DNA of 36,464 nt from a virus. Below, one piece after another: positions 41 through 35,363 of this stretch. Both the position numbers and the translations under genes were made by a program. The stretch is from the IMG/VR virus record IMGVR_UViG_3300042465_004362, positions 1 to 36,464 of that record; one strand, given 5' to 3'. Under the pieces are notes generated by a model, which was not told the DNA's origin, did not search any database, and was given only the letters and a program-made list of their open reading frames with translations. Positions within the stretch are counted from its first letter, which is position 1, and every line of letters begins with the position of its first letter.

Positions 41-3000
41 ATGGATTTTGCAAAGATTGCACTGCCTATTGGACTTTCATTTATACCAGGCCTCGGTACT
101 GCCATTGGCAGCGCATTAGGCGCAACGGGTGCCGCCGCTAGCGCTTTAGGATCAGGCGTATTAAGTTTTGGCACCCAACTAGCCATGGGGGCTGATCCTT
201 TACAAGCATTAAAAGGTGCGGTATTAAGCTCGGCGGGTGGCTATCTCGGCAGCCAGGTTAGCTCAATGCTACCCACTGAAGTTGCAGGCATTGGCAAAAA
301 CGTCATTACGCAACTTGTAACAACGGGCAAACTTGATCCGGCTGCGTTAGCAACAAGTGTTGGCACAAGCTTCGCCACAGACGCTTTGGCAGCAGAAACC
401 GGCATGGACAAAGCCACCGCTGGGAAGCTTGTTACAGCAGGCTTGCAGGCCTTCCAAGGCAACGAATTAGCCGCATTGACATCATTGGCTCAGGCCGGTA
501 TTCAATCGGGCCTAGCAGGCACTGGCGTAAGCGCACAGTCACCGCAAGATCGCGCCGCGTTTCTTGATGCTAACGCTTCCCTGCAAGGCGCTGGAGCACT
601 ATCCCCGATCACTGCTGAAGATGAGCAGATCGCTATACAGCAGCGCGTTACCAAAGCAAACCAGGCCATCGCTGATTATGCTGGGCCTGGCAATGATCTC
701 AGCCGTGAAGGGCTTGTAAGCCAGCTACAAAGCTTTGGCTTTACGGCAGATCAAGCTGAAGGTTATGCAAAACAGGCAGATCAGCGCATCAATATGAGCC
801 GCGTCGGCGCTGATGTGATGAATCGCTACTCAAAGATTGATCCAGAATTTGGAATGCCTCAGCTTGATCGAGATACGGCCATACAAGAACTTGTGGCGGC
901 TGGCTTCACATCAGATCGAGCCAATGAAATATTGAACGGTATTGATGCGCAAAATGCGATCAAGCTTGAAAACCGGCTAAGCGTTCAATCTGCATATCAA
1001 AACTTCACGCAAGGCAAAGGCTCTGAAGACCAGCTACGCAGTGCTTTAACCTCTGCTGGCTATAACGACGCGCAGATCAACGAACTTGTCACGCGTGGTC
1101 GCGGTGTTATTGCAGGCAGCCAGCTTACAGGCGGCGAGCAAGCACAAGAGCGCGCATCACAATTACCCGACATCAGGGGCGAGATTGCAGGCAAGAGCAA
1201 TTTCAATGAAGCCTACGCTTTAGCGCGTGAAAAGCTTGGCGCTGATGCCACGTTTACCTGGCAAGGCAAAACTTATAGCACTGCCACGGCAGCAGAAAGG
1301 CCTGACCCATCAGGTGCAACAAGCAAGCCATCCACTGAAGTCCCGTATGTCGCACCCAACGGTATGCATAACCGCGCAGCCTTTATCCAGGCCGGTGGCG
1401 GTACAAGTGATGCGGACTATGCCAAGTACGTCAATGCCGTTAACGCGCTAATCAGCGAAGGCAAGTCAGGAACCCTCATTACGCCAGCATCAGTCAATAG
1501 TGCTGGCAAGGACCTTCCTCCGACCACAGGCCCGGTCACGATGGAAAAGCCCAGGGTTGACTCAGTGCTTGGCAGTGTTGCTGCGCAAGGCGTAGCAAGT
1601 TTCGGAGCCAACTCCATCGCTGGCGCATTAAGCGCACTAGGCTTTACAGATGCGGGTAGAACCGTGCTTGATAAGGCCAATCAAATTGCTGTTGCTGCCA
1701 CTGCAGCAGAAGGCGCTGACATCACGCAAGGCAAGAGGGACATCGATGCTGCCATCCAAAAAGTTGGTAGCTCCTCTGGGATTAAAGAGTTTGCCACTAA
1801 TGTTGGCGATCTGGTATCAACAGCTTTTAAGAATCCAAAAGCATTTGGCGCTACTGTTGGCAGTGAGGTTGTTGAAGAAGTATTGCAACTTGCCACACTT
1901 AAGTTCCCTGGCAGCTTCCTTGTCAAAGAGACCGTTGCCTCGGCCCTAGAAAATGGCGGTGCTGCTTACAACACGGAATATGAGTCACAGATTGCCAAAG
2001 GCGCTTCCAAGGAAGATGCGCACTTAGCCGCTCAGAAAGCTGCCGGCACGGCTGCTGGCGTCACCGTAGCCCTGGCAGGCGGTGCCGCTGGCTTAGGCAA
2101 GGTGGCCGGCAAAGTCTTTGGCAGCCAGGCTGATGAGGCAGCAAGTGGCGTCTCTCAAGTTGGCAAGACTACGCTGAAAGAGTCAGCACAGGAAGTGCTC
2201 GAGGAAGGCAGCATTGCTGGGTCGATTGATTTGGCATTGGGTAGGCCTATTGATGCTGCAAACGCGCTCACCAACATGACGGGCGGTGCTTTGTATGGTG
2301 GCGTTACGGCAGGGTCCATACAAGGCACGAAGCTTGATACGCTTGATCAAGCCGCATCAACATCGATTGGCTCAGGCGTTCAAGCCTCATTCAATAACAC
2401 GCTTGCGCAAACTGGTGACATAGCCCAAGCCTCATCGGGTTCTGTTACGACTGCAATCAATAATGGCCTTGACCCTGGCGCAGCAGTTTCATCAGTCATC
2501 AACACAGCCGCGCAATCTGGCGGTGATATGTCAGCCGTTATCAGTTCATCAATTGATACCGGCCTTTCCGCTGCTTTAAGCAGTGGTGTGGACACGTCTG
2601 AAGCGGTAACCACTATAGTTTCAGGATCAATCACATCATCGCTTTCCAGTGGCGTTGATGTCACGACAGCCATTGATTCGACTGTTGGGTCTTCCGTTAA
2701 AACAGGCATTGCAAACGGTGTCGATGCATCAGCCGTGGTTACTAGTTCAGTCAATTCAGCCGTATCAACTGCTTTGAATAATGGTGCGAGTGCATCAACG
2801 GTTGTTACGGGCGCAGTGAGTTCTGCAGTGACATCAGGACTTGCTGCCGGGGCCGATGCCTCAACTGTTATTTCATCCTCGGTGACAGCAGCCGTATCAA
2901 CGGCTACGCAAAGCGGTGCCAATTCGACGGCAGTTGTTGCAGGCTCAACGAGCACGGCAGTATCAACAGCAATTGCAAGCGGTGTTGATGCAAGCACTGC

Positions 3001-4291
3001 TATTAGCTCTGCTGTTGACTCGGCCACCCAAGCAGGGGCTAATGCTTCAACTGCTTCAGCATCATCGATTACGGCTGCGATCACTGCTGGCACGGATACC
3101 AACACGGCTATTGCGGCAGTCACGGGTGCGAACTCAAACATCACGGCAAACAGCACAACAAACAACAATGTCACATCCACAACCGCAACGGATGCGACGA
3201 CGGGTGTAACGAGTCAGACCGTAGTTGACAATAGCTCTGGCGCGTCAACGACCATCACAACCAATAACAACATCACCTCACAAGTAACGACGGTTGGCAG
3301 CACGACCACTACAGTCACAAGCGATACAAGCACGGGTGTGACCACTCAAACGACGGTTGATGGCACTCGCTCAACAGATGTTACGGTTGACACCACCACA
3401 AACGTCACGACTCAGGTTGTTAAAGATACAACCACAAACACCAAAGTGACTGTAGAGTGGAAGCCTGATGGAGAGACCAGGTGTACTTTCATAGACCCTG
3501 AAGGTCAAGAAACTGTTTTTGATGACATTGATGTTGGCGATCCTCCCAAGGTTGATGTTGTTGCGCCTCTTGAGCCTGTTAAACCAGAAGTCAAACCTGA
3601 AACCCCGAAAGAAACCAAGCCAACCACGGCACCGTCAAAGTCAGCAATGGCTGCGTCGGCAATTCCAGGGATGGTTATGGGCAGTGAACTTGGACGCCTT
3701 AAAGGTGAAATGCTTAAATCCGGCCCTGCTGGAGAGCAGGTTGACCCTCTGGCCGCCATGAAGCAAAGGATTGAAGATATGAACGCCATTGATCCGGCCC
3801 TTGCCGCCGTCATTGCACAGCGTCTCGGTGTGGAGCCACCCCAGCAACAGATGCCTGCTTACACCTACGGGCAGGAAACATCGATTGATGACATCCTAGG
3901 CATGGGTAAAAAGGAAGAGCCTGAAGAAGAGCCGCTCTACGCTCAAGGCGGCTTTGTTGAACCCTTGCGTGCTGCTGGCGGTGCCATGAACCCTCAGTTC
4001 ATGTATCGTGCTGGCGGCCTAGGAACTCGAGAAGACTTCCGTCATGGCAAGCATGTTGCCGGTGAGGGCGATGGTCAGTCCGATGACATCCCAGCATGGC
4101 TTGCTGATGGCGAGTTTGTTTTCCCTGCTGATGTGGTTTCAGCACTCGGTAATGGCTCAACCAAGGCAGGAACCGATAAACTCTACAAGATGATGCATGA
4201 GATCCGCGCAAGGGCCAGATCGACCAAGGAAAAGGATCTGCCGCCCCCAGCACATAAGTCTCCGCTCGACTACCTCAAGAAAGGTAAGTAA
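41..4291 (+). CDS. Large Ala/Ser/Thr-rich virion protein (probable tail or ejection protein), 5' end probably outside window
   Basis: This 1416-residue protein opens with a small-residue, membrane-like stretch (about residues 8-70). Three helical repeats follow at about 226-355, each with a Gly-Phe/Tyr core after a Leu-rich helix. A long Ala/Gly region contains an amphipathic part at about 600-790. Then come about 230 residues of short repeats and a Thr-rich segment. The C-terminus carries the GDGQSDDIPAWLADGEFV motif (about 1343-1361), followed by a Leu-Gly-Asn-Gly-Ser segment. I know that ending from large virion proteins of uncultured podovirus-like phages. No enzyme motif is seen. The reading frame is open from base 2 and no Shine-Dalgarno precedes the ATG at 41, so the true start may lie upstream. 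It heads a tightly packed set of four virion genes. A role in DNA ejection or the tail is inference. Confidence 0.85.
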   Translation: MDFAKIALPIGLSFIPGLGTAIGSALGATGAAASALGSGVLSFGTQLAMGADPLQALKGAVLSSAGGYLGSQVSSMLPTEVAGIGKNVITQLVTTGKLDPAALATSVGTSFATDALAAETGMDKATAGKLVTAGLQAFQGNELAALTSLAQAGIQSGLAGTGVSAQSPQDRAAFLDANASLQGAGALSPITAEDEQIAIQQRVTKANQAIADYAGPGNDLSREGLVSQLQSFGFTADQAEGYAKQADQRINMSRVGADVMNRYSKIDPEFGMPQLDRDTAIQELVAAGFTSDRANEILNGIDAQNAIKLENRLSVQSAYQNFTQGKGSEDQLRSALTSAGYNDAQINELVTRGRGVIAGSQLTGGEQAQERASQLPDIRGEIAGKSNFNEAYALAREKLGADATFTWQGKTYSTATAAERPDPSGATSKPSTEVPYVAPNGMHNRAAFIQAGGGTSDADYAKYVNAVNALISEGKSGTLITPASVNSAGKDLPPTTGPVTMEKPRVDSVLGSVAAQGVASFGANSIAGALSALGFTDAGRTVLDKANQIAVAATAAEGADITQGKRDIDAAIQKVGSSSGIKEFATNVGDLVSTAFKNPKAFGATVGSEVVEEVLQLATLKFPGSFLVKETVASALENGGAAYNTEYESQIAKGASKEDAHLAAQKAAGTAAGVTVALAGGAAGLGKVAGKVFGSQADEAASGVSQVGKTTLKESAQEVLEEGSIAGSIDLALGRPIDAANALTNMTGGALYGGVTAGSIQGTKLDTLDQAASTSIGSGVQASFNNTLAQTGDIAQASSGSVTTAINNGLDPGAAVSSVINTAAQSGGDMSAVISSSIDTGLSAALSSGVDTSEAVTTIVSGSITSSLSSGVDVTTAIDSTVGSSVKTGIANGVDASAVVTSSVNSAVSTALNNGASASTVVTGAVSSAVTSGLAAGADASTVISSSVTAAVSTATQSGANSTAVVAGSTSTAVSTAIASGVDASTAISSAVDSATQAGANASTASASSITAAITAGTDTNTAIAAVTGANSNITANSTTNNNVTSTTATDATTGVTSQTVVDNSSGASTTITTNNNITSQVTTVGSTTTTVTSDTSTGVTTQTTVDGTRSTDVTVDTTTNVTTQVVKDTTTNTKVTVEWKPDGETRCTFIDPEGQETVFDDIDVGDPPKVDVVAPLEPVKPEVKPETPKETKPTTAPSKSAMAASAIPGMVMGSELGRLKGEMLKSGPAGEQVDPLAAMKQRIEDMNAIDPALAAVIAQRLGVEPPQQQMPAYTYGQETSIDDILGMGKKEEPEEEPLYAQGGFVEPLRAAGGAMNPQFMYRAGGLGTREDFRHGKHVAGEGDGQSDDIPAWLADGEFVFPADVVSALGNGSTKAGTDKLYKMMHEIRARARSTKEKDLPPPAHKSPLDYLKKGK
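2458..3120 (+). repeat. In-frame ~22-residue Ala/Ser/Val repeats shortening to ~18 residues
   Basis: Within the large virion gene, units of the form (N/S)G(V/A)DAS..V..SV..AV.TAL recur about ten times. Most are 22 residues long and the last few about 18. Hydrophobic residues recur at fixed spacing, as in a solenoid or coiled fibre. The DNA copies are diverged, so the repeat is old or under protein-level selection. A Thr-rich stretch with TT..VT motifs follows to about 3450. Confidence 0.75.
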
Positions 4292-4293
4292 TC

Positions 4294-5319
4294 ATGGCCG
4301 GATTATTTGAAGGCACAGCGCCACCCAATGTTGAGACTACCCGCACCACGGCGCAGCAAGCGCCTGGGTATCTCACCGAGTACCTGAGCAACCTGGCTCA
4401 AGCTGGCACCAGTGCATTAGGCACGACCACGCCAGCGGTTAAAGATGCTGAAGGCAACATCACAACGCCAGCATCATTTACGCCCTTTGGCAAAGATCAA
4501 TTGATTGCGCCAATGTCAACGCTGCAGCAGTCTGCTTACACGCAGGCACCTGAACTTCTAGGTCGGTATTCGACCGCACTTGATCAGGCGCTAACGGCTG
4601 GCAAGTCTGCCATGGATGTTGGCGCAACAGACATCTCAAAGTTTTATGATCCGTTCAAGACTGATGTAATCAATCAGATTGAAAAGCAGGGTCAGCAAGC
4701 CTTGATGCGCAATGTCATGCCAGCACTGAAAGCACTAGGTGTTTCTGGCGGCGCTGGGACCATGGGCGGCAGCCGGATTGGTACCGTATCAGGACAGGCC
4801 TTAGCAGACTTTGCATCACAGCTTGAAGGCCAAAAAATTGCAGCCCAGCAGAATATGTACAAAGCAGCACTTGATGCTGCGCTACGCGAACAGGGTCAGC
4901 AAACAGGTGCTGCAAGCGCATTAAGTAGCCTTGGCAATATTGAAGCGCAAGCAGGCTTAGGTGAAGCCAAGGGACTTGCAGAGCTTGGCGCACAACAAAC
5001 TGCTTACGATCAATTAAAGCTTGAAGCACCGCTTACCAGGGCTGCTAACGTGGCTCAGTTGCTGCGTAATTACCAGTTCCCAACGACAACCACTGAAACG
5101 TACAAGGGTCCTGCAAATGCTTATGGACCATCAGCCTTATCGCAAATTGCTGGCCTGGGAAGTTTGGTTGGTGCAGCCTTCCCGGTAGATAAGGCCGGCA
5201 ACATCGGCGGTCTTGGCGCCTTACTTACCAAGGCGTTTAGCGGTACGGGTGGCAGCGGGACTTATGTGCCTTCAGCAAGTGACAATATGCTGAGTGATCT
5301 TGCGGACTTTGGTGGTTAA
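4294..5319 (+). CDS. Virion structural protein, helical, unknown function
   Basis: A 341-residue protein starting two bases after the preceding stop, which points to translational coupling. The N-terminus is Thr/Pro-rich and the middle (about 80-260) is Ala/Gln-rich and predicted helical. A Gly-rich stretch with a GGAGTMGGSR motif lies at about 150-160. The C-terminus is Gly/Leu-rich and weakly hydrophobic. I see no catalytic motif. Its position between two large virion proteins and its composition fit an internal virion or tail-associated protein. I cannot assign it to a named family. Confidence 0.8.
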   Translation: MAGLFEGTAPPNVETTRTTAQQAPGYLTEYLSNLAQAGTSALGTTTPAVKDAEGNITTPASFTPFGKDQLIAPMSTLQQSAYTQAPELLGRYSTALDQALTAGKSAMDVGATDISKFYDPFKTDVINQIEKQGQQALMRNVMPALKALGVSGGAGTMGGSRIGTVSGQALADFASQLEGQKIAAQQNMYKAALDAALREQGQQTGAASALSSLGNIEAQAGLGEAKGLAELGAQQTAYDQLKLEAPLTRAANVAQLLRNYQFPTTTTETYKGPANAYGPSALSQIAGLGSLVGAAFPVDKAGNIGGLGALLTKAFSGTGGSGTYVPSASDNMLSDLADFGG

Positions 5320-5321
5320 TC

Positions 5322-6908
5322 ATGGCAAAACAATCACCTCTAGCACTTGTTGAAATGCCTGGTGAATCCTCTGGCATGACTGAGGCGCGTCAGACTTACA
5401 TTGACGCTCAGAAAAAGATGCTCGAGGCGCTCGAGTCACGCAATCAACTTTTTGATCCTGTGCTTTTGGCCATGGCTCAAGGATTCTTAGCGCCGACCAA
5501 AACAGGATCATTTGGTGAAAGCATTTCAAATGTTGCTGGAGCCGTTGGTCCTGCAGCAGAGGCCGAGCGCAAGCGCAACATTGAGATGGCTCAGATCCGC
5601 GCAGAGCTTGCTGCCAATCAATATGGCGCAGCACAAAAGGGCGAGGCGCTTAAGTCATTTACAAGTGCCATGCAGCCCGGCAAGCCAGGTGAGACCATCA
5701 CGGTCGGTGGCCAGCAATACCCAGCAGAATTTGCCGGCATGACACCTCAAAGAGCAGCGCAAATTGGTATGTATGACAAAGACCTTGGCGAGCTTGCCAA
5801 TAAATTTTTGCAGGCCATGCGAGATGAAGTTAAGGTAACAGCAGAAGGTGCTTACAATGTTCGCACTGGCCAATTTACGCCAACGCCTGGCGGTACTCTA
5901 GTTAATGTTTATGTTCCAGAGCATAATGGCGACATTCCGATGACGCGCCAGGATCAAGTGGAGTTAAACGAAGCGCGCAGAAAAGGCGACGGAAAAGCAG
6001 TCAGACAAATCATCAATCGCTTGACGCAGCCGTTACCAGAGACGGCACCTGGGGAACCAACCCCTGGAGCAGTTGCAGCAGAAGGCTCTACAGCAAGGCC
6101 TGCAATAACGGTTCAAGAGCGCGAGCGCCGGAGGGAAGAAGAGAAGGCGCAACTCGAGACCAGGACTGCAGCCGAGAAGAAGCTTGCTGAAACCGCTGCT
6201 GGGCGCACTTCGCAAGTGTTTGAGCAAGCTAGTGCTGCAAGACAAACCGATCCAACTTATGCTCGTATTGAAACCATCCTTAAGGAACCTGGTATTGATA
6301 CGGTGATGGGTGTGCTTGAAAGAAATGGTGCGCTTGCACAAATTGGATCGTTGGTTGAAGAGGCCATCCGAGTTGGCAATTACAGCATTGGCATCCCAAC
6401 AATCCGTAAGGTCCTAACCAACGCTGGCACACCGCAGAATTTAATTGATAGGGCTATGGAGCTAACAAGCGCTTTTGCCCAGCTTAATTTTGATGCGCGT
6501 AAAGGCTTAGGCTCAGGCACATCCGTATCCAACTTTGAACAACTCATGGTCAATCAAATGGGATTGTCCATGATGGATACTGCCGCATCAGCAAAGGCTA
6601 AGTTGGCTTTCTTGCGTGAGCAGGCCAGGTTCCGTCAGGAAATAGGATCAGCACTCAAAGAGGCTCGCAAGAAATCACCGGGCATGCAGTTTGATGACTT
6701 TGAAGAGACGCCTGAATTTACAAAAATGTTTGATGCTTACAAGGTGCGTCAAGAAGCCAATGTCAAAAAGGCTGGCCAGCCAGAAACGCCACGCGGTGAA
6801 CTCATTCAGCCTAACAAACCCGCTGCGCCAAGGGCAGGTCAAGAGCGCAAGATTGATGGCAAGACCTATGTACGCCAGCCTGATGGCAGTTATAAATTAA
6901 AGGAGTAG
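5322..6908 (+). CDS. Virion structural protein, probable internal/ejection protein
   Basis: A 528-residue protein starting two bases after the previous stop. Residues 15-110 are helical and charged. A Pro/Gly-rich linker lies at about 225-265, followed by a strongly charged Arg/Glu/Lys coiled-coil segment at about 265-310. A helical domain with Gly-rich turns runs from about 310 to 470, and the end is basic with a KIDGKTYVRQPDGSYK motif typical of C-termini of phage internal proteins. No enzymatic signature is visible. Context in the virion block supports a structural role; ejection is inference. Confidence 0.8.
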   Translation: MAKQSPLALVEMPGESSGMTEARQTYIDAQKKMLEALESRNQLFDPVLLAMAQGFLAPTKTGSFGESISNVAGAVGPAAEAERKRNIEMAQIRAELAANQYGAAQKGEALKSFTSAMQPGKPGETITVGGQQYPAEFAGMTPQRAAQIGMYDKDLGELANKFLQAMRDEVKVTAEGAYNVRTGQFTPTPGGTLVNVYVPEHNGDIPMTRQDQVELNEARRKGDGKAVRQIINRLTQPLPETAPGEPTPGAVAAEGSTARPAITVQERERRREEEKAQLETRTAAEKKLAETAAGRTSQVFEQASAARQTDPTYARIETILKEPGIDTVMGVLERNGALAQIGSLVEEAIRVGNYSIGIPTIRKVLTNAGTPQNLIDRAMELTSAFAQLNFDARKGLGSGTSVSNFEQLMVNQMGLSMMDTAASAKAKLAFLREQARFRQEIGSALKEARKKSPGMQFDDFEETPEFTKMFDAYKVRQEANVKKAGQPETPRGELIQPNKPAAPRAGQERKIDGKTYVRQPDGSYKLKE

Positions 6909-22013: not shown

Positions 22014-22547
22014 ATGCCCAAAACCGCCAAACCCAAAGCCCAGGCCACGCCCCAAACCGCGCCCAAGAAAACAGGCCGCCCCAGCAAATACACCCCTGAA
22101 CTAGCAGCAGAGATCGCAAGGCGCTTAAGTGAAGGAGAGCCACTAAGGCAAATATGCAGAGATGAGCATATGCCTCATTGGACGAACATGTATGAATGGA
22201 TGGCGCAGGACCCCGAGCTTTCGGTACGCATCGCACGCGCACGAGAAGCTGGCTACGACAAGATGGCCGAGGAGTGCCTCGAGTTAGCCGACACACCCAA
22301 GTGGGGCACCAAGCAAGTCGAGTCTCAAGACGGCGTTATCGTTACCAGGGAGGACATGCTTGGCCACCGCAAGCTGCAGATCGAGACACGGCTCAAGCTG
22401 CTGGCAAAGTGGAATCCCAAGAAGTACGGTGAGAGACTAACTCACGCTGGCGATGCTGACAATCCCGTAGCCGTGCAGGCTGACATTAGTATCTTCGACG
22501 CCATGCTCAAGAACCTCGAGGCTAAGAGACAGCTTGGGGACAAGTGA
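22014..22547 (+). CDS. terS: Terminase small subunit
   Basis: 177 residues from the ATG with GGAAG just upstream; an ATG six codons earlier is also possible. After a basic Pro/Ala/Lys-rich start comes GRPSKYTPELAAEIARRLSE, then LRQICRDEHMPHWTNMYEWM, the helix-turn-helix of many small terminase proteins. A helical oligomerisation region and RLKLLAKWNPKKYGERLTH follow. It recognises the packaging site and hands DNA to TerL, whose start overlaps its end by 14 bases. Confidence 0.88.
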   Translation: MPKTAKPKAQATPQTAPKKTGRPSKYTPELAAEIARRLSEGEPLRQICRDEHMPHWTNMYEWMAQDPELSVRIARAREAGYDKMAEECLELADTPKWGTKQVESQDGVIVTREDMLGHRKLQIETRLKLLAKWNPKKYGERLTHAGDADNPVAVQADISIFDAMLKNLEAKRQLGDK

Positions 22548-23964
22548 CCTTGAGGCCCTGCTCAAAGATCCACAGATCCGCGAGCAGTACACCAGGCTAG
22601 AGCCACAGGCGGCTGCTGCCTGGGCCTGGCGCATGATGTGGCTCACTCGAGCACTCAAGCACCAGATCCTACCGCACGGGGATTGGTGGTCCATATGGCT
22701 CATGCTGGCAGGCCGCGGTGCCGGCAAGACTCGAACTGCAGCCGAGCAGATTGGCTGGTGGGCACAGTCCTACAAAGCCACCAGATGGCTCGTGGCGGCC
22801 CCAACGAGCAGTGACGTAAGGGGTACATGCTTCGAGGGCGATTCGGGCCTCCTGAGCGTGATTCCTGCGGTCCTGATCGCTGATTACAACAAGGCCTTGC
22901 ATGAGATCAAGCTTACCAACGGCTCGCTGATCAAGGGCATACCCGCCTCGGAGCCTGAGCGCTTCCGCGGTCCACAGTTCCACGGTGGCTGGCTCGATGA
23001 GTTAGCCGCCTGGGAGTACATCCAGGAAGCCTGGGACCAGATCCAGTTTGGTATGCGCCTAAAGCTGCCTGATATGAAGACCAGGCTGATCTGCACGACG
23101 ACACCGAAACCAAAGGACTTGATCATTGACCTGATCAGCCGTGAAGGTGATGATGTGACGCTCACCACCGCCAGCACTTACTCAAACCTGGATAACCTCA
23201 GTGAGAACTTCAAGCGCCAGATCCTGCAGTACGAGGGCACCAAGCTTGGCCGCCAGGAGATATACGCTGAGATCATCGACCCCGAGGAGGGCGGTATTGT
23301 CCAACGGGATTGGTTCAAGCTTTGGCCTGCTGGCAAGGAACTGCCCAAGCTCGAGTATGTGGTCCAAAGCTATGACTGCGCCTTCACTGAGAAGACGGTC
23401 AACGATCCCACTGCAAGCATCACTTTCGGTGTCTTCAAGCCCCAGGACGGTGGCATGTGCGTACTGATCATCGACGCCTGGCAGGACCGGCTGCAGTACC
23501 CCGACCTCAAGCCCAAGGTCATTGACGAGTTCGAGATCATCTTCGGTGAGGGCAAGACCGCCAAGAAGGTGGACCTGGTCCTGGTCGAAGACAAGGCTGC
23601 CGGCATCGTGCTGATCCAAGACCTGCAGCGCGCACACATCCCCGTGAGGGCCTACAACCCTGGCAGGGCTGACAAGATCCAGCGCCTGAGTATCGTGGCC
23701 AACATCGTGAAGGCTGGAAGGGTGTATGTGCCCGAGTCCAGCAACAGGCCGGGCTATGTCCGCGACTGGGCTGAGGCCATGGTCACGCAGATCTGTAGCT
23801 TTCCGAATACAGACCACGACGACTTTTGCGACGCCTTCAGCCAGGCGCTCAGATACCTCAGAGACGCAAGCTGGCTCAACATCGACCCGCTACCGCCTGA
23901 TGACTACGATCCCGAGGACTATGTGGATGCAGGCATCGTAAGGACCAATCCGTATGCTAGTTGA
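22534..23964 (+). CDS. terL: Terminase large subunit (ATPase-nuclease)
   Basis: 476 residues with a TTG start; the next in-frame ATG would remove part of the ATPase approach. Walker A LAGRGAGKT at 58-66, Walker B GGWLDE at 151-156, coupling motif TTTP at 188-191. The RNase-H-like nuclease half has D281 (QSYDCAF), E352-D353 (LVEDKAAG) and a DHDDFCDAF cluster at 427-435. It packages DNA into the prohead and cuts concatemers. All key residues are present. Confidence 0.95.
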   Translation: MGTSDLEALLKDPQIREQYTRLEPQAAAAWAWRMMWLTRALKHQILPHGDWWSIWLMLAGRGAGKTRTAAEQIGWWAQSYKATRWLVAAPTSSDVRGTCFEGDSGLLSVIPAVLIADYNKALHEIKLTNGSLIKGIPASEPERFRGPQFHGGWLDELAAWEYIQEAWDQIQFGMRLKLPDMKTRLICTTTPKPKDLIIDLISREGDDVTLTTASTYSNLDNLSENFKRQILQYEGTKLGRQEIYAEIIDPEEGGIVQRDWFKLWPAGKELPKLEYVVQSYDCAFTEKTVNDPTASITFGVFKPQDGGMCVLIIDAWQDRLQYPDLKPKVIDEFEIIFGEGKTAKKVDLVLVEDKAAGIVLIQDLQRAHIPVRAYNPGRADKIQRLSIVANIVKAGRVYVPESSNRPGYVRDWAEAMVTQICSFPNTDHDDFCDAFSQALRYLRDASWLNIDPLPPDDYDPEDYVDAGIVRTNPYAS

Positions 23965-24390: not shown

Positions 24391-27300
24391 ATGCCCAAGC
24401 CAACAGACGCGAAGAAGGTACTCGAGATGCTGTACGGTGCGCCCAAGCCTGCCGTCAGCCGCCTTGAGTACAAAGACGGTGGCGCCGTCAGTATGCAAGA
24501 CGGTGGCGATCCCACCCAGATGTTTAACTTCAATCCCATGGCCACCAAGGCTGCCAAGCAAAAACAAATGCGCGAGTCCACGCCTGAGACACCACTCGGT
24601 GCGCTCAGCCGCGGGTTTGCTAGTGGCTTATTCGGCAACATTGAAGACCCAGTACCTTACACCGGCAGCATCATGGAAGGCTCGCCACAGCGCCAGCAGT
24701 CACAGGCAAGCCTGCGCGAGATTGGCCGTAATGTCGGCGCACTGACAGACATCGGCGGCATGGTTACGCCATTCGTCAAGCCTGCAACCCAAGCCATCAC
24801 ACGCGGTGCCACAGCATTAGGTAGAACGGGACTCGAGCAAGTCGATCGCGCCATGTTTGGCGAGGGTCCGCTTGGCAATGCCCTAAGCATGGTAGCGCCA
24901 CTGAACGTCAACGCGCCGGTCAGCAGGCTTGGCTTTTACAACCCGATCGAAGAGACGGCCACCACCTTGCAGCGCAAGCAAGGGCCAGGACAGGCCTTCC
25001 TCAATGAGTTCACACGGGCGGGTATCAGCAAACAGCGCCTCGAGGATGCAGGCTTAGCTCAAAAGCTTGCTGCCACGCCTAATGTCACGCGTGAGGAAGT
25101 CCAGGCCATGACTAAGGGCACCATGCCTGATGTCGAGGAAGTGGTCCTGAGCAGGTCCGTCGTACCGCCCTACATGAAGGGGTTTGCCGACTTGTACATG
25201 CCAGGCCTAAATGTCAATGACTACAGGCAGATCAATCAGTTGCGCAAGCTTGCCGATGAGCGTTATCAGAAGGCCCTTGCGGAAAACGATTTGGACGCCG
25301 CTGAGTTTGCGATGAAGGCCGAAGAGGACATCAACAAGTTCAGCAGGACCCACAGCTATGGCACCAAGCCTGGAGAGCGGCTGACCGAGTACCACGAGTA
25401 TCAAGAGCCGGGCGGCAAAAATTACCGCGAGGTCTTGCTCAAGGTCCCGTCTTCAGAAAAGTACGATGACAACTTCCGCTCGTCGCACTGGTCAGATCCC
25501 AACGTCATATCCCATATCAGAATGAATGACCGTGTGGACGCCGACAACAAGAATGTGCTTTTCATCGAAGAGCTTCAGTCTGACTGGGCGCAAGAAGGCC
25601 GTAAAAAGGGGTTCGCCCCGAAAAATTTTGATCAGCAAATTAAAGAAGGGATTAAAAGACTAGAAGGGCTTCGTGATCAACTTGCAGCCATCAAAAGCAA
25701 GCTTGATCAGCCAGGGCTTGCACCTGATGAGCGTAATATCCTAATGGAAGAATACGGCACGCTTACAAACAAACAAGCTGAAGAAATAGACTGGGGCAAC
25801 AATCTAATTGATGCCAAAAACTCAGGAATTCCCGAAGGCCGGTTTGTCAAAAACACCAACGAGTGGGTTGACCTATCGCTGAAGAACATCATTAGGCGCG
25901 CAGTCGATGAGGGCTACGACCGCGTTGCATTCATTGATGGGTACAAGTCTTACCTGCGCTTCCCGCAAGGCGCCGATGGCGAGTCCACTGAAGCAGGAAT
26001 GCGCAAGTTCTACGACGAGATTATCCCTGGTAGGCTCAAGGCTCTGGTTGGCAAAGACAATGTCAGGACCATCCCCGGCATCACGCAACAGCGACCACTT
26101 GATGTTTCGTTGCAAGGCGATCGGTACTATGTGGTCGACGCTGACACCGACATTGCGATACCAGATCATCCTGGATTCCGAAGCCTTGAAAGGGCCGAGC
26201 AATACCTTGATGAGTTGTACAGCAAGTCAAAGTCCATGGATCAGATCGGCTTTGACATCACGCCTGAGATCCGCGAGAAGTTCAGCAAACCCATCCCTTA
26301 CAAAGAAGGTGGCGCCGTGAAACGAGTTCACATATCTGATAACCCCGACACGATGCTGCTTGAGCTTGCCATGGGCGGCCCTGTCCGCATGGCCGGTGGC
26401 AAGGCCGTCTCTGATGTTGCTGAATTCGCAGGCAAGAAGTTTTTGCCAAAAGCTGCGGCAGCCTCTGCAGACATCAGCAAACTAGGCGATACCACGCTAG
26501 GACAGGCGGTCAAAGAAGGGCGCAGGCAGCGTGAGTCCGTAACGCTTTCGGGCGCTCTAGCCCCATTACAAGCCCCTGTGAGGGGTGAGACAAGCAAGGA
26601 GCTACTGAAGGCGCAGACCAAGCAGCTAACGGACCAGGAAAAAGAAACGCTTGATGGCTTGCGTCAGACCTACCCCGACTTCTCAAATGCCGTCAAGTTC
26701 ATGACGCCACAGGAAGTCAGCAAGATCATCCGCAACCCCGAGGGTGTCAAGGAGATGGATCGCCTGCTGCAGACCATCCCATCGGCTAAAGAACTGGCCG
26801 CCGTAGCCAAGGCCGGCACACCCAAGCAGGGCTGGTATCGAGCCAGTACGCAGGCCCTCATCGATGTGTTTGGCGTACAAGATGCACCACGCTTTGCATC
26901 GCTGCTGGCCGCCATGTCGCCACAAACCAGCGTTGAGTCCAACCTGATCAACGCGCTGAACACCTGGAAGAACTGGACCGCGGCAGGCAGGCCCACCGAC
27001 CCCAAGCAGATCAAGGCCATCATGGGCCAGTCAGTGCAAGGCTCGGGTACTGAAGCCTCGGTGCTCGATGCATGGACCAACAACGCCATGCGCGCTTTGC
27101 GTGCGCCCAATCCGCTCGATGTGGTGCTCTCAGGCCCCAAGGTTGACTCGTTCTACCGCAACCTGGCTGATGATGTGTACCGCGTGACAAACGACGCCTG
27201 GATGGCATCAGGCTTAGGCGTGGATCAGGGCATGTTCAGCGGCTCGCCTACCGCACTGCAGCTAAGCCGCGGCGATCCTGGCTTATCGCCTGGTTACATC

Positions 27301-28728
27301 GCCTCGAGTGCGCGCATGCGTGAAGCCGGGCAGTTGAACAAGATGCTGCCGTCTGAAGCACAGGAAACCACCTGGTCCTACTTCATGCCGCTTTATGAGA
27401 TGCAACGCAAGACAGGATTGCCAGCACGCGAAATCCTGCAGCGTGGCTTACTGACGCCTGAAAGCATCCGCGGTACGCCCGACTTTTCAACGCTACTCAC
27501 GCAGGGCCAGTACGGTGATGTGCTGCGCCAGGCAGGCTATGGCGAGCAGCTATCGGCCATGAAGCCTTATCAATTCCCTGAGTCAGCCCCGAGCTTAAGC
27601 CGATCGGAACAGCGCGAAGTGGAGCGTGCAGCACGGCGTCTTGAGGGCCTCAAAGGTTTGCGTGAAAGCGAGAGCAGATCAAAGATTTACTCACTGCCCA
27701 AGCTTGAGACTTTGCCAACGGGTGAGGTCAGAGAGATACCACCACAAAGTGCGTTTGCTTCAGCGCAAATGGAATACATTCCTGGTGAAGGCACGGGCGT
27801 TTTGCCTGACCTGCTGAACGCATCGCCTGGCACCAAGCAATACTTCTCAAGCCGCATGTCAAGTGCTTTCCGAGATCCGCAAGAGCGCGACATTTTGCAG
27901 CGCGCTGTTGGACTTGAACCCTTGCAGATCCGATCCATGACGGGTTCATTCAGGCCATCAGGCAGGGTTGGTTTTCAAGGCAACATCAAAGAGCAGGCAT
28001 ATGATGTGCCCAAGGCCTGGGAAACAAACCCCGGCTACGCCTCGATGGTTGAAGTACCTTTGGTTGAAGGCGATATACCTCAGCCCTTAAAAGATAAGCT
28101 TTCAGCCGTTGAAGCTGCACGCGGTTTTATGTCTGCGCAGCGCGGATCGACTTGGAATGCGCAAGTCCCCATGCGCGGCGGTCAAGACATGATGGTCAGG
28201 ATGGAGAAAAAAGTTGATCCTGAAAGCATGCGGCTTGCTTCAGCATTGACCGATGAGGATGTGTTCTTGGCCGATACGGGCCAGGGCGTTGCAGTTATTC
28301 ACAACCCCTACAAAGCAAACAACCCTCCATACGATCAACTCCAAAAAGACAAGCTTGTTGAGATTCTTGGTGGCTTGCCTGTGGGTACAACGCCGACCAA
28401 AAACATAAGCGACTACATTGACTTTAGCGAGGCCATTACAGGCCCACAGGGTACTGGCGCAACCACCAGAATGCTACAAGAGCGCTTATCGCCACTTGAT
28501 GCAGCAACGCGGGAAAGCTTAAGCCAGGCCGCTCAGCCAATCGCTGGTGATGTGCTGGAAATCATGACCAAACAGCATCAACGCGCCAAGGTTCCCATGC
28601 GAGAGGATTATGCAAGGGCACTTGAATTGATTAAGCGCGGTGGCATACCAGCGCTGATGGCCGCTCTTGCCGCTGGTGAGGCATTGCCTGCTGAAGTGGT
28701 CAACGATTTGTTAACCGAGGCCCCATGA
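24391..28728 (+). CDS. Giant polyvalent protein between terminase and portal
   Basis: 1445 residues from the second ATG, with GGAG upstream. It begins with a short basic helix, then YKDGGAVSMQDGG. At about 335-520 is a domain found in phage polyvalent proteins: YHEYQEPGGKNYREVLLKVP, SHIRMNDRVDADNKNVLFIE, ELQSDWAQEGRKKGF, IIRRAVDEGYDRVAFIDG. A second GG motif (YKEGGAVKRVHI) is at about 636. At about 810-950 is another phage domain (FASLLAAMSPQTSVESNLIN, SGPKVDSFYRNL, VTNDAWMASGL), which I match to DUF7178-type sequences. Helical and linker regions follow. Polyvalent proteins are thought to travel into the host with the DNA and protect it. That role is inference here. Confidence 0.82.
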   Translation: MPKPTDAKKVLEMLYGAPKPAVSRLEYKDGGAVSMQDGGDPTQMFNFNPMATKAAKQKQMRESTPETPLGALSRGFASGLFGNIEDPVPYTGSIMEGSPQRQQSQASLREIGRNVGALTDIGGMVTPFVKPATQAITRGATALGRTGLEQVDRAMFGEGPLGNALSMVAPLNVNAPVSRLGFYNPIEETATTLQRKQGPGQAFLNEFTRAGISKQRLEDAGLAQKLAATPNVTREEVQAMTKGTMPDVEEVVLSRSVVPPYMKGFADLYMPGLNVNDYRQINQLRKLADERYQKALAENDLDAAEFAMKAEEDINKFSRTHSYGTKPGERLTEYHEYQEPGGKNYREVLLKVPSSEKYDDNFRSSHWSDPNVISHIRMNDRVDADNKNVLFIEELQSDWAQEGRKKGFAPKNFDQQIKEGIKRLEGLRDQLAAIKSKLDQPGLAPDERNILMEEYGTLTNKQAEEIDWGNNLIDAKNSGIPEGRFVKNTNEWVDLSLKNIIRRAVDEGYDRVAFIDGYKSYLRFPQGADGESTEAGMRKFYDEIIPGRLKALVGKDNVRTIPGITQQRPLDVSLQGDRYYVVDADTDIAIPDHPGFRSLERAEQYLDELYSKSKSMDQIGFDITPEIREKFSKPIPYKEGGAVKRVHISDNPDTMLLELAMGGPVRMAGGKAVSDVAEFAGKKFLPKAAAASADISKLGDTTLGQAVKEGRRQRESVTLSGALAPLQAPVRGETSKELLKAQTKQLTDQEKETLDGLRQTYPDFSNAVKFMTPQEVSKIIRNPEGVKEMDRLLQTIPSAKELAAVAKAGTPKQGWYRASTQALIDVFGVQDAPRFASLLAAMSPQTSVESNLINALNTWKNWTAAGRPTDPKQIKAIMGQSVQGSGTEASVLDAWTNNAMRALRAPNPLDVVLSGPKVDSFYRNLADDVYRVTNDAWMASGLGVDQGMFSGSPTALQLSRGDPGLSPGYIASSARMREAGQLNKMLPSEAQETTWSYFMPLYEMQRKTGLPAREILQRGLLTPESIRGTPDFSTLLTQGQYGDVLRQAGYGEQLSAMKPYQFPESAPSLSRSEQREVERAARRLEGLKGLRESESRSKIYSLPKLETLPTGEVREIPPQSAFASAQMEYIPGEGTGVLPDLLNASPGTKQYFSSRMSSAFRDPQERDILQRAVGLEPLQIRSMTGSFRPSGRVGFQGNIKEQAYDVPKAWETNPGYASMVEVPLVEGDIPQPLKDKLSAVEAARGFMSAQRGSTWNAQVPMRGGQDMMVRMEKKVDPESMRLASALTDEDVFLADTGQGVAVIHNPYKANNPPYDQLQKDKLVEILGGLPVGTTPTKNISDYIDFSEAITGPQGTGATTRMLQERLSPLDAATRESLSQAAQPIAGDVLEIMTKQHQRAKVPMREDYARALELIKRGGIPALMAALAAGEALPAEVVNDLLTEAP

Positions 28729-28915: not shown

Positions 28916-28926
28916 GTTTGCTCCTT

Positions 28927-28958
28927 GTTTGCGAACAAACATTTTATCCACTTATCAA
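28927..28958 (-). promoter_or_regulatory. Leftward element with TTGATA-AGTGGATAAAA and a UUCG hairpin
   Basis: TTGATA is followed by AGTGGATAAAATG in the same register as the two AGTGGATTAAA promoters, but the expected -10 (TTCGCA) is poor. A GTTTG-TTCG-CAAAC hairpin stands just before the AAGGAG site. It may be a degenerate promoter, a binding site or a translational control element. Confidence 0.4.
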
Positions 28959-28981
28959 GTTGGTTGCAGAGGAATATAACT

Positions 28982-31552
28982 ATGGCCACCGAAATGCCCA
29001 TTGAGCAGGACTATGGCCGCTTCATTAGCGGTATGGCCGATGATGAGGTGCCCGTTGCTGATATGTCAGCCGAGTTGCCCGATGAAACTGCTGAGATTGA
29101 GGAGCTTCCTGACGGCTCGGCAGTGGTTCACATGCCAAGCACCAAAGGGCCGCTTGAAGATCCCGACTTTTACGAGAACCTGGCCGATGTTATCGATCCC
29201 CTGGATTTGGATTCGATGGCCATGCGCTACTTGGACCTGCTGAAAAAGGACCAGACGGCACGCGAAGACCGCGATAAGCAGTACGAAGAGGGCATCAAGC
29301 GCACGGGCATGGGCAAGGACGCCCCTGGTGGCGCTACGTTTTTCGGTGCCAGCAAGGTAGTACACCCGGTTATTGCTGAAGCTTGCGTGGATTTTGCCTC
29401 GAGGACCATCAAGGAGCTATTCCCACCTGATGGCCCGGTCAAAACCAAGATCCTTGGCGAGACTGACGAGGAAAAAACCAAGCGTGCAGAGCGCAAACGC
29501 GACTGGATGAACTGGCAGCTAACCGAGCAGATCGAAGAATTCCGCGATGAGCAAGAGCAACTGCTCACGCAACTGCCACTTGGCGGCTCGCAGTACCTGA
29601 AACTGTACTGGGACGACAAAAAACTGCGCCCGGTGGCTGAGTTTTTGCCCATCGACAAGGTCCTAATCCCGTTTGCAGCCACGAATTTTTACACCGCACA
29701 GCGTGCTGCAGAGATTCACGACATCACTGAGTTTGAATTCAACCAACGAATTGACTCAGGCTTGTACCGTGACATCAGTTTGACCCGCGTAACCCTGGAA
29801 CCTGAGCCAACCAGGCCAGAAAAAGCCAACAACAAGATCGAAGGACGTAAAGCAGAGGAAAACATCGACGGTATGCGCCGTGTTTTTCACATTTACACCT
29901 ACCTCGAGCTTGATGACGACACTTATTCCAAGGGTGAGATGGCGCCTTACATCCTGATGGTGGATGAAATCGACCGTGAAGTGGTTGGTTTGTACCGAAA
30001 CTGGGAAGAAGGCGATGAAACCATGGAAAAACTCGACTGGGTGGTCGAGTACAAGTTCATCCCATGGCGCGGTGCCTACGCTATTGGCATGCCCCACCTC
30101 ATTGGTGGCCTGGCAGCAGCACTTACAGGGGCCTTACGGGCGCTTTTAGACTCAGCGCACATCAATAACGCCCCTGCCACGCTCAAACTCAAGGGCGCCA
30201 AGGTCTCAGGCCAGTCAGTGCAGGCCGATGTGACGCAGGTGGTCGAGATTGAAGCTGCGCCAGGCGTGGATGACATCCGCAAGATTGCGATGCCCATGCC
30301 GTTTAACCCCCCAAGCCCCGTGTTATTCGAGCTTTTGGGCTTCTTAGACAAGGCTGCCAAGGGTGTAGTGACCACCGCCGAGGAAAAGATCGCTGACATC
30401 AATTCCCAGGCCCCTGTGGGCACCACGCAGGCGTTGATTGAGCAGGGTGCCGCCGTGTTTTCGGCCATTCACGCTCGATTGCACAAGTCACAGGGCCGCG
30501 TGCTGAAGATTTTGCAGCGCCTTAACCGCTGGTACATCGAAGACATGCGCCGCGGTGAGGATGTGGTCGATCTGGAGGTCCAACCCGGCGATTTTGAGCG
30601 CATGGGTGATGTGGTGCCCGTCTCAGACCCCAATATCTTCTCTGAAACTCAGCGCATGGCGCAGATTCAGGCGGTTTTGGCACGATCGGACAAGTCACCC
30701 GACTTGTATGACCGCCGTGCGGTTGAAGAGCGCCTGCTCAAGCAGCTAAAGATCCCTGGCATCAATGAATTGCTCAAGGGCACCCCGGTTCCCGAGGAGC
30801 GCCCAGCATCTGATGAGAATGTGGCCATGGCACTGGGCCAGAATGCCTACGCTTACCCGCACCAGGACCAGTTATCGCACATCCAAACGCACCTGGACTT
30901 CGCGCTTAACCCTGCTTTTGGTGGCAATCCCATCATGGCATCGTTCTACCTGCCGCGGGTGCTCGAGCACATCAAGCAGCACATGGTCTTATGGTACTTA
31001 GGTCGCATGAATGGCTATGTGAACAAGGCCCGTGGCAAGCCCATGGCAGAGAGCGATTACGAGAACAAGATGCTGACCTCGGAAATCGACAAGACCTTTG
31101 CTATTGCATCGCAACATGTCATGCAAGACACCAACGCAGCCTTCCAGCAAATGGTGCCCAAGCTGCAGCAACTCATGCAAGCCATGCAGCAACTTACGCC
31201 CCAGCCGCAACTGCCACCTGAAGCGCAAGTGCTTAAGGAAACCAGCCTGGCAGAGACCCAGCGCCGCGCACAGCGCGATCAGGCTGAGATGCAACTCAAA
31301 GGTGCCGACATGCAGCAACGTGGCCAGATTGACATGGCACGACTGCAAGGCGATCAACAACGCGCAGCCGAGCGTGATCAGTTGGATGTGGCGCTTAACG
31401 CTACAAACAACCTCACCAAGGAGCGCATAGCAACTGCACAACTCACCCAGAAGGATGAGCAATTGCAGGCAGAGCAGTACGAGACTGCTATCCGGCTTCA
31501 AAACGAAGCACAACGCAACTTAGGAGCTAATCGTGGCCCAACCATCCAGTAA
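28982..31552 (+). CDS. Portal (head-tail connector) protein
   Basis: 856 residues from the ATG with GAGGA upstream; the 19-codon upstream extension is rejected. After an acidic start, the core shows GGATFFGASKVVHPVIAEAC, LPLGGSQYLKLYWDDKKL, PWRGAYAIGMPHLIGGLAAA and a Pro-rich hinge before the C-terminal helices. I recognise this as the large portal type of uncultured podovirus-like phages. The last 120 residues are Gln-rich coiled coil (QQLTPQPQLPPEAQ, then many Gln/Arg). It forms the ring through which DNA enters the head. Placement after terL supports the call. Confidence 0.85.
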   Translation: MATEMPIEQDYGRFISGMADDEVPVADMSAELPDETAEIEELPDGSAVVHMPSTKGPLEDPDFYENLADVIDPLDLDSMAMRYLDLLKKDQTAREDRDKQYEEGIKRTGMGKDAPGGATFFGASKVVHPVIAEACVDFASRTIKELFPPDGPVKTKILGETDEEKTKRAERKRDWMNWQLTEQIEEFRDEQEQLLTQLPLGGSQYLKLYWDDKKLRPVAEFLPIDKVLIPFAATNFYTAQRAAEIHDITEFEFNQRIDSGLYRDISLTRVTLEPEPTRPEKANNKIEGRKAEENIDGMRRVFHIYTYLELDDDTYSKGEMAPYILMVDEIDREVVGLYRNWEEGDETMEKLDWVVEYKFIPWRGAYAIGMPHLIGGLAAALTGALRALLDSAHINNAPATLKLKGAKVSGQSVQADVTQVVEIEAAPGVDDIRKIAMPMPFNPPSPVLFELLGFLDKAAKGVVTTAEEKIADINSQAPVGTTQALIEQGAAVFSAIHARLHKSQGRVLKILQRLNRWYIEDMRRGEDVVDLEVQPGDFERMGDVVPVSDPNIFSETQRMAQIQAVLARSDKSPDLYDRRAVEERLLKQLKIPGINELLKGTPVPEERPASDENVAMALGQNAYAYPHQDQLSHIQTHLDFALNPAFGGNPIMASFYLPRVLEHIKQHMVLWYLGRMNGYVNKARGKPMAESDYENKMLTSEIDKTFAIASQHVMQDTNAAFQQMVPKLQQLMQAMQQLTPQPQLPPEAQVLKETSLAETQRRAQRDQAEMQLKGADMQQRGQIDMARLQGDQQRAAERDQLDVALNATNNLTKERIATAQLTQKDEQLQAEQYETAIRLQNEAQRNLGANRGPTIQ

Positions 31553-31694: not shown

Positions 31695-31876
31695 ACCCCA
31701 TAGCGGACCTGGTCCGTGACATCAAGATACGCCAGGCTGAAATAAGCCAGTCCTTGGCAGCAGGCAATGCTGCGAATTGGGAAACGTATCAGCGCACGGT
31801 CGGGATGTATCTGGCGTTTGAACAAACGCTCCAGATGATTGATTCAATTTTGAGAGATGAAGATGAATATGAATGA
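31691..31876 (+). CDS. Small helical protein of the head cluster
   Basis: 61 residues with a GTG start overlapping the previous stop. NPIADLVRDIKIRQAEISQS, NWETYQRTVGMYLAFEQTLQ and an acidic end form a two-helix hairpin. Small proteins of this pattern commonly follow portal genes of this phage type. Function unknown. Confidence 0.75.
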   Translation: MNPIADLVRDIKIRQAEISQSLAAGNAANWETYQRTVGMYLAFEQTLQMIDSILRDEDEYE

Positions 31877-32300
31877 ACCAGTAGCGTCTAACGACGCTGA
31901 GATGGCTTGGGCATTTCCGAGCGTAGATCCTGGTGCAAAACCTCTTGGTGGCCGTGTGATGGTACAGATCCGTCGGTCCAAGAAGAAAACCACCAAGGGC
32001 GGTATTGTGCTGGTCGAAGAGACCAAAGAGACGGAGAAGTGGAACACGCAAGTGGCCAAGGTTATTGAGATTGGACCGCTCGCGTTTTGCCATCGTGACA
32101 CCATGAAACCCTGGCCGGAAGGCTCTTGGTGCGTGGTGGGTGATTACATCCGCGTACCTAAGTGGGGCGGCGATCGCTGGGAAGTCAAAGTACCCGGTGA
32201 GGATCAAAACGAAGATCCAGCGCTTTTCATGATCATCAATGACCATGAAGTCATCGCAAAAATCACGGGTAATCCGCTCGACACGAGGGCATTCCTATGA
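31857..32300 (+). CDS. GroES-like co-chaperonin
   Basis: 147 residues if the first of three in-frame ATGs is used (others at 31863 and 31869). PLGGRVMVQI at 29-38 matches the GroES N-terminal strand, and KTTKGGIVLVE at 44-54 matches the mobile loop that contacts GroEL. WNTQVAKVIEIG follows as the next strand, and FMIINDHEVIAKI at about 124-136 matches the C-terminal strand. It is longer than host GroES (about 97) by an N-terminal extension and an internal insertion. It may adapt host GroEL to fold the capsid protein, as T4 gp31 does. Confidence 0.85.
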   Translation: MKMNMNEPVASNDAEMAWAFPSVDPGAKPLGGRVMVQIRRSKKKTTKGGIVLVEETKETEKWNTQVAKVIEIGPLAFCHRDTMKPWPEGSWCVVGDYIRVPKWGGDRWEVKVPGEDQNEDPALFMIINDHEVIAKITGNPLDTRAFL

Positions 32301-34445: not shown

Positions 34446-35363
34446 ATGGCAGCCCCAATGCGCAGTACAGACTTTCGTTCGATTGTTGAGCCAATCCTCA
34501 ACGAGTGTTTCGATGGAGTCTATGATCAGCGTGCCGACGAGTGGTCGCGTGTTTTCCGCGAGCAACAAGGCATTCCCCGTAACTACCACGAAGAGCCTGT
34601 GCTCTACGGTTTTGGCTTGGCACCGTTGCTTCCTGACGGCAGCCCAGTCACTTACCAGCAGGGTGGCGTACTCTTCCTCAAGCGCTATGTGTATGCAGTT
34701 TATGGTTTGGCCTTCGCGCTGACCAAAGTGCTTGTTGAGGATGGCGATCACATCCGTATCGGTTCGGTCTATGCCCGTCACTTGGCACAGTCCCTGGTTG
34801 AAACCAAGGAAACCCTGTGCGCCAACGTGCTGAACAACGCCTTTACTGGCGGTCAGTATGCTGGTGGCGACGGCGTGGCACTTAACAGTGCTTCGCACCC
34901 CATCGTGAATGGCACTTTCAGCAACCTGCTGACCAACGCTGCTGTTCTCAGCCAGACCTCGCTTGAGCAAATGCTCATCCAGATCCGTCAGGCAGTGGAC
35001 AACAACGGCAAGAAGATCCGCCTCGTGCCACGACAGCTTGTCGTTGCTCCTGGCAACATCTTCCAGGCTGAGGTCCTGCTGAAGTCCGTCTTGCGTGCCG
35101 GCCAGGCAAACAATGACATCAACCCAGTCAAATCCATCGGCTTGCTCGATGAAGGCGCTGCGGTCCTGTCACGTTTGACCTCGAGCACTGCATGGTGGGT
35201 CCAGACCGATGCGCCCGAGGGCATGAAGCTCATGATGCGCCGCGGCCTTGAAAAGACCATGGAAGGTGACTTTGAAACCGACACCATGCGCTACAAGGCA
35301 ACTGAGCGTTATGACGTTGGCTTCACTGATCCCCGTGCCATGTACGGTACGCCTGGCGTCTAA
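34446..35363 (+). CDS. Major capsid protein (HK97-like fold)
   Basis: 305 residues. Markers include VLVEDGDHIRIGSVYARHLA (spine-like helix), NSASHPIVNGTFSNLL, LSQTSLEQMLIQIRQAVDNN, RLVPRQLVVAPGNIFQAEVL and a terminal ERYDVGFTDPRAMYGTPG. This order (HPxxNG, helix, G-K-x-I, L-V-V-x-P) is typical of HK97-fold capsid proteins. Followed by a UUCG hairpin, consistent with high expression. No scaffold domain is fused. Confidence 0.88.
   Translation: MAAPMRSTDFRSIVEPILNECFDGVYDQRADEWSRVFREQQGIPRNYHEEPVLYGFGLAPLLPDGSPVTYQQGGVLFLKRYVYAVYGLAFALTKVLVEDGDHIRIGSVYARHLAQSLVETKETLCANVLNNAFTGGQYAGGDGVALNSASHPIVNGTFSNLLTNAAVLSQTSLEQMLIQIRQAVDNNGKKIRLVPRQLVVAPGNIFQAEVLLKSVLRAGQANNDINPVKSIGLLDEGAAVLSRLTSSTAWWVQTDAPEGMKLMMRRGLEKTMEGDFETDTMRYKATERYDVGFTDPRAMYGTPGV

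Follow-up and report, generated by a model that had tools for sequence, protein, structure and literature searches.

A variable gene slot between terL and portal encodes modular, polyvalent-type phage proteins that carry a recurrent peptide tag

The stretch from position 1 to 36,464 of the virus record IMGVR_UViG_3300042465_004362 (the window) carries a gene for a polyvalent-type protein of 1445-1446 residues between the genes for the terminase large subunit (TerL) and the portal protein. We find that this interval is a variable slot, the proteins of which exchange modules and recurrently carry GG linkers and a short peptide tag, and we consider it probable that the gene is a cargo gene of the slot, its product being a phage-type polyvalent protein that would be loaded by way of the tag and ejected together with the DNA. 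Polyvalent proteins were proposed as a class from domain architecture and gene position, and for most phages it is an open question how such large proteins would enter the virion. A tag that is independent of the module it accompanies, and nearly confined to one place in the genome, offers a handle for mutation, reporter fusion and searches, making packaging directly testable.

Results

The slot gene starts at ATG 24388 or 24391, directly downstream of a GGAGG ribosome-binding site, and runs on the plus strand to a stop codon ending at 28728 as an open reading frame (ORF) with no internal stop. More than 80 IMG/VR proteins are related to its product. With the slot delimited through homology to the window's own genes, approximately 100 IMG/VR loci maintain the order TerL, slot gene, portal, GroES, scaffold-like gene, two small genes and major capsid protein (MCP), and the slot proteins themselves range from 460 to 2550 residues and vary through gain, loss and fusion of modules. 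Mapping of the relatives divides the window protein into a cap (residues 1-25) and two further units (residues 26-644 and 719-1435), each of which occurs alone or in different combinations elsewhere; at locus L175 both modules are encoded by adjacent, separate genes, whereas in the window they are fused.

Pfam domains found in slot proteins are ART-PolyVal, GNAT, PcfJ, RadC, DUF7178 and Gp88. The first four are carried by proteins that share a module with the window protein, and PcfJ, ART-PolyVal and GNAT by proteins retrieved through the tag. ART-PolyVal is fused with DUF7178, the second module of the window protein, at L027 and L031 and with the first, which we call the ELQSDW module, at L020, L077 and L121; in other contexts ELQSDW modules have both LPD22 and ART-PolyVal alongside, as in the giant protein of L121. 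Such fusion and swapping with ART-PolyVal, GNAT, PcfJ and RadC supports polyvalent protein as the class. An earlier reading of this DNA made from the letters alone (the sequence-only reading) had called a 1445-residue polyvalent protein between terL and portal; the ORF is indeed intact and flanked as described, and the class is well supported. The protein is modular and holds several unrelated domains (two independently occurring modules and a C-terminal alpha/beta domain), it lies in the packaging cluster beside late or virion genes (TerL and portal, here and in the approximately 100 loci), and its modules are fused elsewhere to recognised polyvalent domains (ART-PolyVal and LPD22). Presence in the virion and delivery with DNA are the central prediction of the class and not the operational criterion for belonging to it.

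The slot can also be empty. Caulobacter phage RW, a cultured relative (L268), is 40, 48, 58 and 76% identical to the window in TerL, portal, GroES and MCP, respectively, and its TerL-portal gap of just 379 bp (5248-5626) contains only a tRNA-Val gene. The slot gene, as putative cargo, is therefore optional, and the cultured RW can serve as a natural control that lacks it.

Within the window alone, GG motifs are not conspicuous: Y-x(1,2)-GG is seen six times where 3.8 are expected, which is no significant excess, and significance is reached only across the relatives. There, a GG linker is found within 25 residues of 34% of homology breakpoints but of only 6.6% of randomly placed positions (at most 11.7% over 500 trials), and a GG occurs in the last 35 residues of 48 of 55 complete slot proteins as against 1 of 46 TerL, 0 of 15 scaffold-like and 0 of 10 MCP proteins. 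Several genes 3' of MCP in the relatives do carry a C-terminal GG. The sequence-only reading had the slot protein share its GG motifs with virion proteins; this is only partly right, applying to some of the genes after MCP but hardly ever to MCP, scaffold-like protein and TerL. Three genes after MCP (L043, 19695-20714; L052, 17634-18797; L056, 16881-18005) end in tails of the KKRGG[AR]C or GGSVKC type and represent another GG-bearing class. The window also encodes, at 41-4291, a 1416-residue protein in which C-terminal GG motifs (YAQGG, YRAGG) precede a tail of the GEGDGQSDDIPAWLADGEFVFPADVVSALGNGSTKAG type.

The peptide tag has the approximate consensus YKxGGxV-x(1-4)-[IF]-S-D-N-P-D-x-M-x-L-E-[LM] and is located at module junctions and C-termini. 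In loci fetched by module homology, with tag-selected loci left out, its core [DE]xMxLE[LM] was counted 46 times among 121 slot proteins (115,710 residues), as against 0.24 times in shuffled sequences, and is absent from the 327 other ORFs of these loci (122,526 residues), a set that includes non-genes. Nineteen of the 46 tags lie within 12 residues of the C-terminus. Among 19 internal tags, 84% have a homology breakpoint within 30 residues, compared with 21% at random (maximum 53%). The tag was first noticed in some of the loci later counted, and the independent check is a scan of all IMG/VR contigs with a DNA pattern for DNPDxMxLEL. This returned 70 stretches, each analysed one of which is in a slot ORF; one match is a 2.2-kb fragment without landmarks, and the matches include slot ORFs unrelated to either module. 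Many IMG/VR contigs are akin to one another, and all these counts are to be read as other than independent events.

ELQSDW, GNAT, PcfJ and ART-PolyVal proteins all bear the tag, a single peptide common to proteins that are otherwise unrelated. The linkers differ freely in their codons but keep the peptide, indicating that selection acts on the peptide; on the same grounds we rejected a role of the linkers as DNA recombination sites as the sole reason for their presence. A tblastn search with the tag peptide, a short query of low power, found no close relative in annotated phages.

Individual loci show further arrangements. Slot proteins of L231 (565-4830) and L261 (3005-7027) have three tags each, two internal and one 4 residues from the C-terminus, with a spacing of ~380 and ~550 residues. 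In L241, L252 and L267, a 461-residue slot ORF holds a canonical GNAT domain between a tag at residue 26 and a C-terminal tag. A plasmid-borne GNAT protein of ~1980 residues (L196, Acinetobacter plasmid pACI-6db8, 29338-35283 of the record) resembles the slot GNATs. The slot protein of L269 (7791-10460; MW202545) combines a Gp88 domain with stretches that resemble the tag more loosely (GGNVQPSIAQMRMAL and GGVAKSLDDMKAEM) and suggest a broader tag family.

The first module contains EELQSDW (residues 393-399) and VDEGYDRVAF (505-514), and across 38 relatives, with identities as low as 25%, its EExQSD and G..GY/VAF residues are strictly or almost strictly conserved. A model of residues 130-650 built from 38 diverse sequences (mean pLDDT 81.6, pTM 0.72) predicts, from residue ~249 to ~632, the order beta1-helices-beta2-beta3-beta4-[helix, coiled coil]-alpha3-beta5-alpha4-beta6...beta7. 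Apart from the bracketed insertion this is the order of the GNAT topology, so that the predicted structure gives moderate support for a GNAT fold. The top PDB matches in Foldseek were spermidine/spermine acetyltransferases (SSAT; E 0.014 at best, prob 0.77-0.82), and VIA-align 2 returned the AtaT, KacT and TacT toxins (Z ~9, 125-133 residues aligned, root-mean-square deviation (rmsd) 3.3-4.4) in a list that also holds coiled-coil matches of the inserted hairpin. The module thus resembles GNAT acetyltransferases in predicted secondary-structure order and partial superposition, but differs in sequence. It has no Pfam match to GNAT; the canonical acetyl-CoA loop (Q/RxxGxG/A, between beta4 and alpha3) is absent from the alignment, its place being taken by EExQSD..xxG..G and a variable coiled coil; and against PDB sequences no match was obtained, alignment A3 giving noise only. 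Because no sequence profile links it to GNATs and the invariant EExQSD stands where the acetyl-CoA loop would be expected, we describe the predicted fold as GNAT-fold-like and the module as not a canonical GNAT by sequence. Its own invariant residues are EExQSD...W...R...FYD. The window protein and several relatives are without a segment of at least 60 residues (the KQSADRYDL region) that follows VAFI[DN]G in many other ELQSDW modules (window 25903-26000).

The second module contains DUF7178 (PF23802), which scored 38.8 bits against a curated cut-off of 27, and 42.8 bits in another search. SPQTSVESNL (residues 843-852), GPKV (915) and VTNDAW (932-937) belong to this module, and across 31 relatives the SPQ...GPKV...VTNDAW residues show complete or nearly complete conservation. 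The domain shares a pattern of SPR/SPQ..W.RN, GPK[VT], VTxDxW and Q..TW with proteins of mycobacteriophages; those are solo proteins of ~190 residues, whereas the domain in the window contains additional insertions and forms part of a 1445-residue fusion. A confident model of residues 700-1445 (pLDDT 89.7) predicts a helical domain followed by an alpha/beta domain. Structural relatives of this C-terminal module in BFVD are large phage proteins, several of them named polyvalent ("Large polyvalent protein associated domain"), RelA/SpoT or inorganic pyrophosphatase (InPase), with E down to 2.5e-9. The alpha/beta domain aligns with phage S-adenosylmethionine (SAM) lyase over 127 residues (Z 9.6, rmsd 5.5), a likeness that gives a weak lead from the predicted structure; AcrB-type porter domains scored slightly lower (Z ~7 to 8.7) and were set aside as a common arrangement.

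Both motif regions had been singled out in the sequence-only reading as at least two domains, one with an enzyme-like fold. The motifs are present and conserved in 38 (ELQSDW/VDEGYDRVAF) and 31 (SPQ/GPKV/VTNDAW) relatives, each region corresponds to a conserved domain (residues ~249-632 and DUF7178 at 813-995), and both are predicted to be globular and not fibrous. Delivery with the DNA and modification of host defence or transcription targets, which that reading also proposed, would be possible roles. Both modules, the GNAT-fold-like one with an invariant signature of its own and DUF7178, offer defined targets for biochemical work.

Discussion

From the intact ORF, the conserved and modular slot, the tag statistics and the predicted folds we infer packaging, ejection, a function for the tag and catalysis. 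The slot is that of a group of tailed phages from aquatic settings, and in the window its protein comprises an unvarying N-terminal peptide, the GNAT-fold-like module, a flexible linker bearing the tag, a DUF7178 module and an alpha/beta domain. Most likely this protein is made late. The repeated GG/DNPDxMxLEL tag would bring it into the procapsid close to the portal, or in as an ejection protein, and it would leave together with the DNA, after which the separate modules would act on host targets. The models suggest enzymatic activities for these modules: the first may modify a protein or small molecule, and the second would probably act on nucleic acid.

Three comparisons frame this proposal. 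In size, multiple unrelated domains, position in a late packaging cluster and recombination with ART-PolyVal, LPD22, GNAT, PcfJ and RadC, the window protein is like the phage-type polyvalent proteins of Iyer et al. 2017 (PMC5512222); it is unlike them in carrying ELQSDW and DUF7178 modules, which we did not find named in the sections consulted, in the slot-specific peptide tag on its modules and in that no metallopeptidase was found. The internal proteins of T4 are diverse anti-defence cargo with only one short conserved peptide in common, the capsid targeting sequence (PMC3012670). The slot proteins are similar in that a single conserved peptide marks proteins otherwise unrelated to one another, here putative cargo, but their tag is placed internally at module ends as well as at C-termini. 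By analogy with T4, the tag may be a cargo-loading or a processing signal, and we prefer loading because the tag also sits at the extreme C-terminus of proteins. Finally, DarA, DarB and Hdf of the tailed phage P1 are virion-carried defence proteins, of which DarA-Hdf line the inner capsid surface (PMC12810830, PMC9024508); here the likeness lies in the proposed virion-carried role.

Several results weigh against this reading. A Pfam profile search found no ART-PolyVal, LPD or metallopeptidase domain in the window protein itself. The strict tag is present in just 38 of 87 slot proteins of at least 400 residues, others having a tail of the GGLAxL type. The GNAT assignment comes from the fold, with a best Foldseek E of 0.014 and no acetyl-CoA loop motif, and as a relative of the canonical polyvalent GNAT profile the first module was rejected (hhalign probability below 1%, with small alignments). 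We found no proteomics on any family member, and recognised no prohead protease or other processing enzyme in the searched part of the window.

It is conceivable, though in our view unlikely, that the protein is of polyvalent type but unpackaged, a late or middle multi-enzyme working in the infected cell, with the slot being a tolerant insertion site for accessory genes. The solo DUF7178 genes of mycobacteriophages do sit among small genes of unknown function, away from virion genes, and RW is viable with an empty slot, as for any accessory gene; yet it is difficult to account for a tag on non-homologous modules, almost confined to the slot, unless these modules pass through some shared handling step, and the terL-portal position is constant. 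We think it quite improbable that the protein is a structural virion component of the internal core or tail-tube type with incidental enzyme-like folds, given an optional slot of highly variable content and globular models with conserved polar residues, even though ELQSDW homologs occur within giant "lysin" or lysozyme-type ORFs of cyanophages and phrog_7348 bears an endolysin label. A possibility to be taken more seriously, if still one we doubt, is that the tag and GG linkers serve not capsid loading but proteolytic processing and domain release, or form a helix that docks a factor of the host or the phage after ejection. Tags lie at module ends and C-termini, as expected of cleavage or end-marking sites, with up to three per protein (L231, L261), the linker beside the tag was modelled with low confidence, and Iyer et al. 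2017 (PMC5512222) proposed that polyvalent proteins are processed into units. A tag 4-11 residues from the end, however, does not call for cleavage, the searched part of the window showed no recognisable protease to match, and the conserved part of the tag seems to resemble a helix-capping motif rather than a typical cleavage site.

A further alternative concerns DUF7178, which might be a DNA glycosylase-like (HhH-GPD) domain acting on host or phage DNA; this is compatible with the cargo proposal, and we hold it as a tentative idea that is more doubtful than not. Depositors labelled the distant solo DUF7178 homologs of mycobacteriophages "glycosylase", and we take the helical domain with G-P-K-V/T ... 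V-T-x-D-x-W to be reminiscent of the endonuclease III hairpin and catalytic Asp, a lead only. Profile-profile comparison with Nth/MutY (hhalign probability below 1%) gave no support, and HhH-GPD (PF00730) had no match in the window. The Foldseek lists for the C-terminal module showed no HhH-GPD chains, but they are filled by the alpha/beta domain and barely sample DUF7178.

If the cargo proposal is correct, it may extend to the slot as a whole, an idea to which we give a little less than even credence: the terL-portal interval could be a dedicated effector-loading bay, such that any module gaining the GG/DNPDxMxLEL tag would be loaded into the capsid and injected, with the tag as a portable loading peptide and multiple copies stringing effectors together. 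In practice, the tag lets unknown slot modules be flagged as candidate injected effectors.

Features of the window

Table 1. Coordinates of the slot gene, its segments and its neighbours in the window
Feature	Position	Strand	Basis
TerL homolog, left edge of slot	22534..23964	+	homology
Polyvalent-type protein ORF, 1445-1446 aa	24388..28728	+	ORF call; 80+ homologs between TerL and portal
N-terminal cap peptide (MPKPTDAKKVLEMLYGAPKPAVSRL), conserved; common to relatives with different downstream modules	24391..24465	+	relatives comparison
GG linker 1 (YKDGGAVSMQDGG); also ahead of modules in relatives	24469..24507	+	relatives comparison
ELQSDW module, predicted GNAT-fold topology, aa ~247-632	25129..26286	+	alignment, model of aa 130-650, structure search
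EELQSDW motif, end of predicted beta4	25567..25587	+	alignment, model
Coiled-coil insertion, beta4/alpha3 interval, aa ~413-478	25627..25824	+	model, structure search
VDEGYDRVAF motif, end of alpha3 and beta5	25903..25932	+	alignment, model
Peptide tag YKEGGAVKRVHISDNPDTMLLELAMGG, aa 637-663, module junction	26299..26379	+	motif counts, DNA scan
Second GG (VRMAGGK) and low-confidence inter-module linker, aa ~664-717	26380..26541	+	pLDDT <50 at model residues 1-18
DUF7178 (PF23802) helical domain, aa 813-995	26827..27375	+	Pfam profile, alignments
C-terminal alpha/beta domain, aa ~1112-1352; weakly like phage SAM lyase and AcrB porter domains	27724..28446	+	model, structure search
Portal homolog, right edge of slot	28925..31552	+	homology
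GroES-like protein	31857..32300
MCP homolog	34446..35363		homology

The GroES-like co-chaperonin gene between portal and MCP is retained in nearly all relatives and is also present in RW, HTVC023P and CRP-901.

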